64,000 nt of DNA from Rhodobacteraceae bacterium WD3A24 (GTDB taxonomy: Bacteria > Pseudomonadota > Alphaproteobacteria > Rhodobacterales > Rhodobacteraceae), in NCBI GenBank assembly GCA_002967695.1, contig PUHN01000013.1, positions 1 through 64,000 on the forward strand, given 5' to 3'. The position numbers and the translations under genes were made by a program. The first letter of the stretch is position 1. The number at the start of each line of letters is the position of its first letter. A model generated the notes under the pieces. That model was not told where the DNA came from. It worked only from the letters and a program-made list of their open reading frames with translations, and made no database searches. This document shows, piece after piece, positions 6,812 to 17,502 of the stretch.

Positions 6812-8100
6812 GCCGGCCGCGCGCCGGGGCGGCCGGCGATCCAGACATCGCGGATGGCGCGGTCGTCGCCCATCATGATGGTGGGAAAGAGCGCCTCCCA
6901 GAAATCCTCGGCGCGCGCGGCACGCTGGGCGATGGCGGGGGTGGAGGCGAGGTCGATGATGGCGAGGTCGGCCTCCATCCCCACGGCCAGATTGCCGATA
7001 TGGGCGTCGAGATGCAGTGCCTTGGCGGCACCTCGGGTGGCCAGCCACCACAGCTGGGCGGGGTGGAGCGCCGTGCCGCGCAGCTGGCCGATCTCGTAGG
7101 CCGCCGCCATCGTGCGCAGCATCGAGAAGGACGAGCCGCCGCCCGTGTCGGTTGCCAGCCCGAGCGTGATGCCCTCGGCCTTGAGCCCGGCCACGTCGCA
7201 CAGCCCCGAGCCGATGAAGGTGTTCGATGTCGGGCAGTGGGCCACCGCCGCGCCCGCCTCGGCCAGCCGCGCGCGCTCGCGGTCGGTCAGGTGGATGGCG
7301 TGGCCGTAGACCGCGCGCGAACCGATCAGGCCAAAGCGCTCATAGACGTCGAGATAGTCGCGCGCCTCGGGAAACAGCTCGGCCACCCAGGCGATCTCGT
7401 CGGGCTGCTCGGACAGGTGGGTCTGCATCAGGCAGTCGGGATGGGCCGCCCACAGCGCGCCCATCGCCGCGAGCTGGTCGCGGCTCGATGTCGGGGCGAA
7501 GCGCGGCGTGACGACATAGGACAGTCGGCCCTGCCCGTGCCAGCGCTCCAGCAGGGCGCGGCTCTTGTCGTAAGCGCTCTGGGCGGTGTCGCACAGCTCT
7601 TCCGGGGCGTTGCGGTCCATCGCCGTGCGCCCGCCCAGCGCGCGCAGGCCGCGCCTGTGGGCCTCGGCGAAATAGGCCTCCACGCTGGCGGGGTGACTTG
7701 TGCAGTAGCTGCAGCTCGTGGTGGTGCCGTGCGAGAGCGCGAGATCGAAATAGGTCCGCGCCGTCGCCGCGGCATGGGCCGGATCGGCAAAGCGTGCCTC
7801 CTCGGGGAAGGTGTAGCTGTCCAGCCAGTCGATCAGCCGCTTGCCCCAGCTCGCCACGATCGCGGTCTGCGGGTAGTGGACATGGGCGTCGATGAAGCCC
7901 GCCGTGATCAGCGCTTCGCCATGGTCGTGAACGCGCGCGCCCGGATGGGCCGCGCGCAGCGCGTCGGCCGGCCCGGTCGCCGCGATCCGCCCGCCACGCA
8001 CGAGCACGCCGCCACGGCTCTCGTGGTGTGCGGCCGTCGGCCCCTCGTCGAAGGGATCGCCGTGGAAGGCAAGGGTCTGCCCCAGGATCAGGTCGGCCAT
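6808..8100 (-). CDS. guaD: Guanine deaminase
   Basis: 430 residues. Zinc amidohydrolase converting guanine to xanthine and ammonia in purine catabolism. Family marks: first metal His pair in GFIDAHVHYPQ, CSYCTS and NAPEEL of the substrate pocket, TPRFAPTSS, the metal His in QTHLSEQPDEI, YGHAIHLT, and the late ATDTGGGSSFSML. Length matches bacterial GuaD. No other purine degradation genes are adjacent. Convergent with the UPF0173 gene, sharing a 4-bp CTAG. Confidence 0.93.
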   Translation of the reverse strand: MADLILGQTLAFHGDPFDEGPTAAHHESRGGVLVRGGRIAATGPADALRAAHPGARVHDHGEALITAGFIDAHVHYPQTAIVASWGKRLIDWLDSYTFPEEARFADPAHAAATARTYFDLALSHGTTTSCSYCTSHPASVEAYFAEAHRRGLRALGGRTAMDRNAPEELCDTAQSAYDKSRALLERWHGQGRLSYVVTPRFAPTSSRDQLAAMGALWAAHPDCLMQTHLSEQPDEIAWVAELFPEARDYLDVYERFGLIGSRAVYGHAIHLTDRERARLAEAGAAVAHCPTSNTFIGSGLCDVAGLKAEGITLGLATDTGGGSSFSMLRTMAAAYEIGQLRGTALHPAQLWWLATRGAAKALHLDAHIGNLAVGMEADLAIIDLASTPAIAQRAARAEDFWEALFPTIMMGDDRAIRDVWIAGRPGARPA

Positions 8101-8159
8101 GCGGGAATCTCCATCGGCGTCGCGGGCCGGGCACCATAATTGCGCCGTGCGGGGAACGA

Positions 8160-8312
8160 AAGTGCCGGCGGTGGGTGCAGGGCCTCTCGCGCAGGAGAAA
8201 GGTCAACCCTTGCGGGTGATGCAGGGCTGTGAAATGGTTTGCGGGCGCGCGAGAGCGGATCGGCGGGTCCGGGCAGGGACGGGCGGCAAAGCGCCCGGAA
8301 TTCAGGATGATC
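8160..8312 (+). ncRNA. ssrS: Probable 6S RNA
   Basis: The 220 bp between guaD and the 5-formyl-THF cyclo-ligase gene has no convincing coding start but is structured: CTCTCGCGC near 8180-8190 pairs perfectly with GCGCGAGAG near 8247-8256, enclosing internal-loop sequence with a smaller hairpin (CCCTTGC and GCAGGG). In Proteobacteria 6S RNA, which binds the sigma-70 holoenzyme in stationary phase, is typically encoded just upstream of this cyclo-ligase gene (ygfA/fau). Identification rests on position plus the stem-bubble-stem shape; exact ends are uncertain. Confidence 0.55.
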
Positions 8313-8320
8313 CGAACACG

Positions 8321-8899
8321 ATGAGGCTTGTCGGGGACAGCGATACCGCCGCCGTGAAAGCCGAACTCAGGCGCGTCGCGCTCGCGCGGCGCAAGGCGGC
8401 CCACGCCGCCGGGCAGGGCAAGGCGGCGGCCTATCTCGCCCAGCAGCTCGCCCGGCATTCGGGGCGGGTATTGTCGGGCTATATGCCGATGAGGCAGGAA
8501 ATCGACCCGCTGCCGGCCATGGCGGTCCATGCCGGCCCGGTCTGCGTGCCGGTGATCGAGGGGCCGCGCCTGCCGCTGCGCTTTCGCCGCTGGACGCCGC
8601 AGGCGCGGATGGTCGAGGGCGAGTTCGGTGCGTTGATTCCCGCCGAGGGCGAGTGGCTCGTTCCCGAGGTGCTGGTCGTGCCGCTGGTGGCCTTCGATTC
8701 GCGCGGCTTCCGGCTGGGCTATGGCGGCGGCTTCTACGACCGCACGCTGGACATGCTGCGCGCCGAGCGGCCCGTGGTGGCGATCGGCTTTGCCTTTTCT
8801 GCGCAGGAGGTCGCGCGGGTGCCGGTGGAGCCGACCGACCAGCGGCTCGACATGGTCGTCACCGAGACGGGCGCGCGGTGCTTCGACCGGCCGGCGTGA
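8321..8899 (+). CDS. ygfA: 5-formyltetrahydrofolate cyclo-ligase
   Basis: 192 residues, usual family length. ATP-dependent conversion of 5-formyl-THF to 5,10-methenyl-THF in one-carbon metabolism. Motifs are AELRRVALARRKA, LSGYMPMRQEIDP, the ATP-binding LVVPLVAFDSRGFRLGYGGG and FYDRTLDML, and the closing EPTDQRLDMVVTE. The frame is open much further upstream, but the ATG at 8321 gives the family-length protein and leaves the upstream 6S-like region non-coding. Confidence 0.94.
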   Translation: MRLVGDSDTAAVKAELRRVALARRKAAHAAGQGKAAAYLAQQLARHSGRVLSGYMPMRQEIDPLPAMAVHAGPVCVPVIEGPRLPLRFRRWTPQARMVEGEFGALIPAEGEWLVPEVLVVPLVAFDSRGFRLGYGGGFYDRTLDMLRAERPVVAIGFAFSAQEVARVPVEPTDQRLDMVVTETGARCFDRPA

Positions 8900-8951
8900 G
8901 ACCATCGGCTTTCGCTTGCCCTCGTCGGGCCGCGCCCGTAAGCCTGCGGCC

Positions 8952-15772: not shown

Positions 15773-16195
15773 TCACTTCCAGCCGTACTGGATCAGCATC
15801 CCGGTGCCGCCGTTTCCGCGCTGTGTGGCGTGCCCGCTGGCGCCTTCGCCGAACTGGAAGATGCCATAGGCGTTGTTGTTGCCGCTCTGGCGCAACGAGG
15901 CATCGTGGCCGTCGCCTTCCTGATGGACGGCGCCGTAGTTGCCGTGGCCGCGCTGACCGATGGCCGCGGCGTTGCCGTTGCCGCGCTGTTCGACGTTGGC
16001 GCGCTGGTTGGCGCCCTGCACGAGGGCGTAGATCCCCAGCCCGATGCGCATGGCGCGCTCCTCGTCGGCGTTGCGGGGGTTGAGTTCGACGCTCAGGCTG
16101 CCGCCGGCTTGTGCGGGGGCGGCAGCGAGCCCGCCGCCCAGCCCGAGAGCCGTGGCGAGGGCGAAGGCGGTGAAAGTGCGGTTGATCGGTTTCAT
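15773..16195 (-). CDS. Curlin repeat protein (CsgA/CsgB-like)
   Basis: 140 residues. Sec signal MKPINRTFTAFALATALGLG with cleavage after AQA. A short non-repeat segment (ELNPRNADEERAMRIGLGIY) precedes about six curlin half-repeats of 11 residues with the Q-x-G-x2-N pattern: VEQRGNGN, IGQRGHGN, HQEGDGH, RQSGNNN, FQFGEGA, TQRGNGG, ending IQYGWK. Such repeats stack into the beta-helix of extracellular curli amyloid. Start 16195 is preferred over 16231 because only it gives a signal peptide, with AGGAG upstream. Last gene of a three-gene cluster. Whether it is the major or the nucleating subunit is not evident. Confidence 0.85.
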   Translation of the reverse strand: MKPINRTFTAFALATALGLGGGLAAAPAQAGGSLSVELNPRNADEERAMRIGLGIYALVQGANQRANVEQRGNGNAAAIGQRGHGNYGAVHQEGDGHDASLRQSGNNNAYGIFQFGEGASGHATQRGNGGTGMLIQYGWK

Positions 16196-16227
16196 GGCGT
16201 GATCTCCTGTCGCGTGATCGGTGGGTT

Positions 16228-16650
16228 TCAAAGCTCGGTGCTGCCGCGTGTGTCGCGGCAGGTCAGGGTGCGGCCCTGCCAGTCGATTTCGAGCGTGGCG
16301 CGGTATTGTGCCGGGTCGCCGCCCAGGGTGGCCCGCCCCAACTCCGCCGGGCGGCCCGGCGCGGCCGAGAACCGGCCCGACTGGTTGATGAGCGCCGCGC
16401 CGGAGGCGCCGCTGCGGTGGATGGTCAACCGGTAGCCGCCTTGGGCGGGTTCGTCGGCATGGACGCGGGCCTGATAGGTCAGGCTGCCGCCCGAGCGGGT
16501 GACGGCGATCTCGCAGCGCAGCGGCCCCTCCTCGGCGCTCTGGTGGGCGTTGGCGGCGCCGGTGCCGCAGCCGGCGGCGGCAAGCGCAGTGGCCGAGAGG
16601 CCGAGCGCGAGCGCCGAGGCAAGGGTGGTGCGGCGGTTGAGGGGTTTCAT
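16228..16650 (-). CDS. csgH: CsgH-like curli assembly chaperone
   Basis: 140 residues. N-terminal signal MKPLNRRTTLASALALGLSA, with either Sec cleavage after the Ala-rich region or a weak lipobox (AAGC). The mature ~95 residues form an Ig-like beta sandwich by pattern: LRCEIAVTRSGGSLTYQARV, GGYRLTIHRSG, SGRFSAAPGRP, ATLEIDWQGRTLTC. This matches CsgH, the alphaproteobacterial counterpart of CsgC, a periplasmic protein that stops premature amyloid formation by curlin. The two mature cysteines (in RCEIA and LTCRD) lie where a clamp of the first and last strands could form. Lies between two curlin genes, which supports the call. Confidence 0.82.
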   Translation of the reverse strand: MKPLNRRTTLASALALGLSATALAAAGCGTGAANAHQSAEEGPLRCEIAVTRSGGSLTYQARVHADEPAQGGYRLTIHRSGASGAALINQSGRFSAAPGRPAELGRATLGGDPAQYRATLEIDWQGRTLTCRDTRGSTEL

Positions 16651-16719
16651 GGCATTGCTCCTTTCAAGGGCTGGCGGGCGCGGGCCGGGCGTGATGCACG
16701 ACCCGCGCGCGCTGGCGTG

Positions 16720-17160
16720 TCAGTCCTGGACGATGACGGCGACGTTGCCGTTGCCGTGCTGGCTGGTGCTGGCGCTGTTACCGTGGCCCGACTGGATGAC
16801 GCCCACGGCGTTGCGGCGGCCGCGCTGATCGACCTCGGCCTCGTTGTGGCCGCCGAACTGGGCGACGCCGGCGATGTTGCCGCGGCCGCGCTGGTCGGTG
16901 TCGGCGGTGTTGCGGTGGCCGCGCTGGCCGACCACGGTGCGGTTGCGGTAGCCGTCCTGCGTGTTGATCGAGGTGTTGCTCCACCCGTCCTGATAGACCG
17001 AGAGGCGCTGGCCGTGGCCCGACTGGGCGCCGCCGACGGCGTTGCCCGAGCCCCACTGCTCGATGGTCACCGAGTTGCCGCCGGCAGCGGCCGCTGTGGC
17101 GAGGCCGGCGCCCATCATCAGGGTGAAGGCGGCGGTGCGGATGGTGGTTGCGATGGTCAT
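16720..17160 (-). CDS. Curlin repeat protein (CsgA/CsgB-like), first gene of cluster
   Basis: 146 residues. Signal peptide MTIATTIRTAAFTLMMGAGL, cleavage after the AAA stretch. The rest is repeats with a clear 22-residue period, each holding two Q-x-G-x2-N or close variants: IEQWGSGN, AQSGHGQ, YQDGWSN, TQDGYRN, GQRGHRN, DQRGRGN, AQFGGHN, DQRGRRN, IQSGHGN, SQHGNGN, ending VAVIVQD. Five to six repeats is the size of CsgA. Rich in Gln, Asn, Gly and Arg, secreted amyloid subunit of biofilm matrix. GGGAGA precedes the ATG. Lead gene, so the control region at 17161-17502 presumably drives all three. Confidence 0.87.
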   Translation of the reverse strand: MTIATTIRTAAFTLMMGAGLATAAAAGGNSVTIEQWGSGNAVGGAQSGHGQRLSVYQDGWSNTSINTQDGYRNRTVVGQRGHRNTADTDQRGRGNIAGVAQFGGHNEAEVDQRGRRNAVGVIQSGHGNSASTSQHGNGNVAVIVQD

Positions 17161-17502
17161 TGGTCTGTCTCCCATAGGTCGCAAGGTTTCGGTTTCGTGG
17201 CCGACCCGGCGGCGGGGGATTGCCTGTGGGGCGTGTCGTGGCCCGCGCCGTGTCGATGACCAAGCCTTGCCGCCGAGGGCCGATGACAAACAATATCGCC
17301 GCGCAGCCATCCGATAGCTGCCCGCTGTCATGCGATGACAGCGGTTCGGGCAGGGCGCGTTATCGGATGACAGGGATGGACAAATGCCTGATTTTAAAAT
17401 CTTTATTGTGCCGCCGAACGGCGCGTGGCGCTGTCGCTCGCCCGGTCCGGCCGGCCGGGCCGGCCCTTGCCATCGTCGCGCCGGCGGGCTCAATTGGCGG
17501 CC
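17161..17502. promoter_or_regulatory. Dyad-rich control region between the curlin cluster and a DMT transporter
   Basis: 342 bp without a gene, lower in GC than the flanks (34 of 60 in 17281-17340). It holds a perfect 10-bp-arm dyad with arm CCGCTGTCAT at 17322-17331 and its complement at 17335-17344, flanked by CCGATA (17311-17316) and TATCGG (17361-17366). GATGACA recurs at 17282, 17334 and 17366, spaced 52 and 32 bp, close to whole helical turns. A 12-bp palindrome GATTTTAAAATC lies at 17390-17401 with further AT-rich sequence to 17408. The dyad centre is about equally far from both divergent starts. These look like binding sites of a dimeric regulator, identity unknown. Confidence 0.6.

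Follow-up and report, generated by a model that had tools for sequence, protein, structure and literature searches.

The 64,000-nucleotide stretch of DNA analysed here (hereafter the window), from the marine-type bacterium Rhodobacteraceae bacterium WD3A24, carries a tight cluster of three genes on its minus strand (17160-15773), transcribed in the order curlin A, CsgH and curlin B. The intergenic gaps are short (69 bases between curlin A and CsgH, and 32 bases between CsgH and curlin B), and a Shine-Dalgarno-like GGAG or GGAGA precedes each of the three starts. The first-pass annotation of this DNA had described a curlin-CsgH-curlin cluster, and this description is confirmed, the three open reading frames being real and their families supported by Pfam and NF profiles; the protein it referred to as the first is the first by transcription, at the high-coordinate end (curlin A). 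The cluster is surrounded in the window by genes for an FkbM methyltransferase, a small glycine-zipper protein, YebC, an EamA transporter and an ABC ATPase, none of which is related to curli.

The presumed promoter region of the operon (17161..17424, minus strand) is divergent from the EamA gene and contains the block TATCGGATGGC-N-GATATTG, which is kept upstream of curlin A in the nearest relatives (alignment with loci L126, L127 and L128); no sigma-70 consensus was found when one was sought in this region. The same region contains a strong hairpin-forming palindrome, CATCCGATA...TATCGGATG (17306-17371, z-score −3.5). As TATCGGATGGC and GATATTG are kept in the relatives and the full hairpin is not, the palindrome more likely marks a promoter or the site of a regulator than a structured RNA.

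Curlin A (16720..17160, minus strand, 146 residues) is made up of a Sec-type signal, five 22-residue repeats and a C-terminus that reads GNVAVIVQD, and is the putative major fibre subunit. It is a curlin by its match to Curlin_rpt (PF07012; 2.1e-20, 72.8 bits against a cut-off of 20.7, in 5 stretches), and its Q-x-G units, located at residues 35, 46, 57 and so on to 134, follow a strict 11-residue spacing with two units in each of the five repeats, which bears out the 22-residue period noted earlier. A profile of curlin A matches the solved curlins 8c50 (1.7e-47) and 8enq (3.4e-11) in the PDB, and AlphaFold2 predicts a structure that is beta throughout (pLDDT 74.9).

CsgH (16228..16650, minus strand, 140 residues) belongs by family to the CsgC-like anti-nucleation chaperones and has a conserved pair of cysteines (C46 and C131). 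Its assignment is based on matches to PF21112 (1.3e-19, 70.4 bits) and NF041112 (1.3e-30, 105.3 bits), both of which exceed the curated cut-offs, and on the curlins that lie on both sides of it in the window. The family profile also matches the solved CsgH of Rhodopseudomonas palustris (2n59, 4.4e-13), which inhibits CsgA amyloid (PMC4838910) and is the only CsgH for which substoichiometric inhibition of curlin fibrillation is known (PMC4838910). The two proteins share a profile family and adjacent curlin genes, but they are divergent in sequence and differ in that the window protein has a lipobox-like N-terminus (AAGC, a heuristic call); a chaperone role for CsgH in the window organism would follow from its homologues. 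Among 59 CsgH orthologues (the window and loci L077-L154), a cysteine directly after the hydrophobic N-terminus is found in a lipobox-like setting in 28 by a crude pattern and in 14 by a stricter one, and CsgH may often be a lipoprotein.

Curlin B (15773..16195, minus strand, 140 residues) is a minor-type curlin consisting of a non-repeat N-terminal segment, six Q-x-G units (residues 70-125), and thus fewer repeats than curlin A, and a C-terminal QYGW(K). It likewise matches Curlin_rpt as a curlin (5e-10, 39.6 bits against a cut-off of 20.7, in 2 stretches). The non-repeat segment that had been noticed in this protein is real, spans residues about 31-65 after the signal, and is conserved in 20 or more relatives. 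An AlphaFold2 prediction from 25 sequences places a strand at residues 32-38 and an 18-residue helix at residues 43-60, both at a pLDDT of roughly 90 or higher, ahead of a beta-solenoid; the five models span mean pLDDT values from 71.6 to 85.7, the best being 85.7. In this prediction the helix is robust, but its exact packing is not; Foldseek relates the model to the CsgA fibril only weakly (E 0.07, TM 0.25), and the handedness of the solenoid, which comes from a shallow alignment here, is uncertain, since the handedness of curlins is unreliable when predicted from such alignments (PMC10192328).

The conserved strand-helix segment is predicted to cap one end of the curlin B beta-solenoid. A profile of the cap segment matches csgH-linked curlins only, with zero matches among the CsgG-linked loci examined. 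Open-ended solenoids without caps polymerise (PMC10192328), and curlin B, with one end capped, would therefore be an end subunit; the modelled helical cap fits a protein of the fibre end. E. coli CsgB, in contrast, is predicted to form a solenoid highly similar to that of CsgA (PMC10192328), whereas curlin B of the window has a non-repeat, helical N-terminus. The division of labour proposed in the first-pass annotation, between a subunit with regular repeats and one with a special N-terminus, is supported by the repeat pattern and the conserved N-terminal segment, and the assignment of curlin A as the major subunit and curlin B as the nucleator is plausible. The C-terminus of curlin B is W or F in 37 of 42 cases, some with one further residue, and was considered as a BAM-type signal; this reading was set aside because minor curlins in CsgG-linked operons likewise end in W, Y or F.

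To our knowledge, every characterised curli system needs the CsgG pore. The first-pass annotation had found no csgE, csgF or csgG near the cluster, and this absence extends to the whole window genome (3.36 Mb in 129 contigs, 99.8% complete), apart from one weak HfaB-like member of the CsgG family: profile searches for CsgE and CsgF gave no match in the genome even at E<=1, and the search with PF03783 gave a single match, so that no csgEFG set lies just outside the window or further away. The suggestion that the secretion genes lie elsewhere is thereby excluded for csgEFG proper. These searches are sensitive, as they recover the E. coli csg genes and also full CsgG (1e-48 or better) with CsgF alongside in five members of the family (G012, G013, G029, G030 and G134); CsgE above cut-off was found in none of the alphaproteobacterial genomes searched. 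CsgD, the remaining curli gene that had been reported as missing nearby, belongs to a regulator family with very many members.

The single CsgG-family match is a 297-residue protein on contig C62 (40 bits to PF03783) that is nearer to HfaB, with 75.9 bits to NF037935, below the equivalog cut-off of 300. Its gene lies within an hfaABD-like cluster (L001:305-3165), flanked by ORFs placed where hfaA and hfaD would be expected, whose products are secreted and gave no family match in Pfam and NF profile searches, on a separate contig and unlinked to csgH. In the holdfast anchor HfaABD of Caulobacter, a curlin-like protein works with the translocon HfaB, which resembles CsgG and is required for HfaA and HfaD to reach the surface (PMC6707917).

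By gene content, with csgE, csgF and csgG sought genome-wide, the cluster is a csgH-type, CsgG-less curlin operon, and its genome lacks the CsgG pore with CsgF and CsgE of canonical curli (type VIII secretion). It has in common with E. coli curli (CsgBAC/CsgDEFG) two curlin-repeat subunits and a CsgC-fold chaperone per operon, but its genome lacks CsgE, CsgF and a curli CsgG, and CsgH stands in the place of CsgC. Operons of this type are already recognised and are widespread in alphaproteobacteria: Dueholm et al. (2012) named csgH, described many Alphaproteobacteria with curlins and csgH only, noted that CsgE is missing from alphaproteobacteria, and concluded that alternative proteins must replace the missing csg genes (PMC3521004). 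The window cluster belongs to this type, as csgH lies beside csgA/B-type genes and its genome has no csgE, csgF or curli csgG, but the lineage of the window has a fixed A-csgH-B order and a curlin B with a predicted cap, which the part of that paper drawn on here does not describe (PMC3521004). In a 2023 survey, CsgG was absent from 1033 of 43279 CsgA-bearing genomes (PMC10192328).

The same pattern recurs in relatives. Of the 298 genomes of the family, 33 have CsgH in a profile search, nearly always with adjoining curlins. Bona fide CsgG is absent from 31 of the 33, and in 28, including the near-closed G017 and G213 (2 contigs each), no CsgG-family match was found at E<=0.001; the latter two also lack csgEFG. 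In G134 a CsgG adjoins csgH together with csgF, and in G029 it lies on another contig with large curlins of its own. A second set of 23 named genomes, obtained by a curlin A scan of a genome collection with a four-sequence query (6 of the 23 duplicate genomes of the first set), contains 20 without CsgG, including Sediminimonas qiaohouensis DSM 21189, the nearest named relative (curlin A 90% identical), in which no CsgG-family match was found at E<=1. Elsewhere in the class CsgH is rare, being present in 5 of about 380 genomes from beyond the family, and the order curlin A-csgH-curlin B is also found in Methyloligella halotolerans (L151). When conserved neighbours were compared across 33 loci, the lineage of the window showed housekeeping synteny only (pncA, rhodanese-like, gyrB, nadK, glyA, acs and maeB). 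An export gene in the neighbourhood was thus rejected, as the linked genes that recur in this lineage beyond the curlins and CsgH are all housekeeping.

The genes of the cassette are under purifying selection. For curlin A, dN/dS among three genomes (the window genome, S. qiaohouensis and one other) is 0.10-0.14, and the window protein itself gives 0.12-0.14 against two relatives; curlin B has values of 0.16-0.32, and CsgH of 0.31-0.46. In more than 20 genera the curlins keep their repeat register, and their N- and C-termini are likewise conserved.

A second type of csgH cassette, in the order curlin-curlin-csgH, is present in four genomes (G017, G075, G085 and G113), and its CsgH proteins form a clade with 99/99 support from a bootstrap that is not fully settled. 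In three of the four genomes, csgH is adjoined by a LuxR-type regulator and a beta-rich, signal-bearing protein of 424-450 residues that ends in Phe (family F23); in G085 the regulator-barrel pair lies on a different contig from csgH (the four pairs are at L079:6273-8921, with the barrel gene at 7641-8921, L080:9274-11768, L081:9819-12466 and L125:1498-4133). The F23 protein is a probable outer-membrane barrel, with a weak Pfam match to an outer-membrane protein, and nothing was found when its sequence was searched against the PDB. An F23 profile matches exactly these four genomes among the 298 of the family; since it was built from three of them, G085 is the only independent datum, and the chance that a single further match among 295 genomes would land on the remaining genome of this lineage is about 0.003. 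The pair may offer a lead on how csgG-less curlins are handled in the sister lineage, rather than in the window; as an exporter for the window curlins the F23 barrel was rejected, the window genome having none. The conserved segment of the predicted cap in curlin B, and this sister lineage with its regulator and probable barrel, are new here.

We infer from these observations that the cluster is a complete csgH-type operon that lacks CsgG and is maintained by selection, and whose curlins would form an amyloid exported to the surface by a route other than CsgG, a reading that we hold at about even chances. Curlin A would be the major fibre subunit, with stacking beta-solenoid repeats, and curlin B the minor subunit, whose capped solenoid end would restrict it to the end of the fibre, where it probably sets the site and direction of curlin A stacking. 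CsgH would hold both curlins unfolded in the periplasm, and these would then cross the outer membrane without CsgG, CsgE or CsgF and polymerise at the surface. A more specific proposal, in which the capped minor curlin sets the fibre end and display at the surface makes use of a general or undiscovered outer-membrane route, with the sister lineage using a dedicated barrel under its own LuxR-type regulator, is tentative and somewhat more likely to be wrong than right.

The main rival to surface export is that the curlins stay inside the cell, where they would build an amyloid or scaffold in the periplasm or at the inner leaflet, or be kept by CsgH from building one. The lack of an exporter in about 30 genomes would be expected if this were so, and CsgH is a periplasmic-type protein, whose lipobox-like cysteine in about half of the orthologues (a heuristic call) could tether it to the membrane. 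CsgC and CsgH proteins are, however, known to hold subunits in a secretion-competent state (PMC4838910), and in the sister lineage the cassette goes together with a probable outer-membrane barrel. Intracellular amyloid is, moreover, usually costly, and we consider retention in the cell a serious but improbable explanation. Export by the HfaB-like protein on contig C62 is less probable still: it draws on the role of HfaB in Caulobacter and on the hfaABD-like arrangement in the window genome, but S. qiaohouensis and nearly all other carriers of the cassette have no CsgG-family match, and a genome of the same genus as the window (G003) has such a match yet no CsgH. As a general exporter of CsgG-less curlins HfaB was rejected on the ground that the closest relative has none, and the protein, missing from that relative, is not an obligate partner of the cassette.

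Two further explanations are both very improbable. Loss of csgEFG from a former curli system would leave behind the same gene pattern as a relic, and the fast evolution of CsgH (see above) could be read in that way, but the reading frames are intact, the repeat register is kept across dozens of genera, and the dN/dS of curlin A is low. The 129 contigs of the assembly leave gaps in which a csgEFG set might lie, which we regard as the least probable case of all, given the completeness of the genome and the absence of csgEFG from G017 and G213 and of CsgG from S. qiaohouensis.

The retention under selection, without CsgG and in dozens of genera, of the subunits and their chaperone implies that curlins either have a second route of amyloid export or act in the periplasm. 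How CsgG-less curlins are exported has been asked since 2012 (PMC3521004), and no paper on this route was found in the open-access literature searched. The question is now directly testable, given cultivable named strains (S. qiaohouensis DSM 21189, for example), the cap segment defined here and the candidate barrel of the sister lineage. Some genomes carry more than one cassette: G250 has a pair of similar curlin cassettes, one on contig C1 (L109) and the other on C19 (L092), G113 has one cassette of each lineage (L080 and L108), and G236 has two copies of csgH within one cluster (L083).
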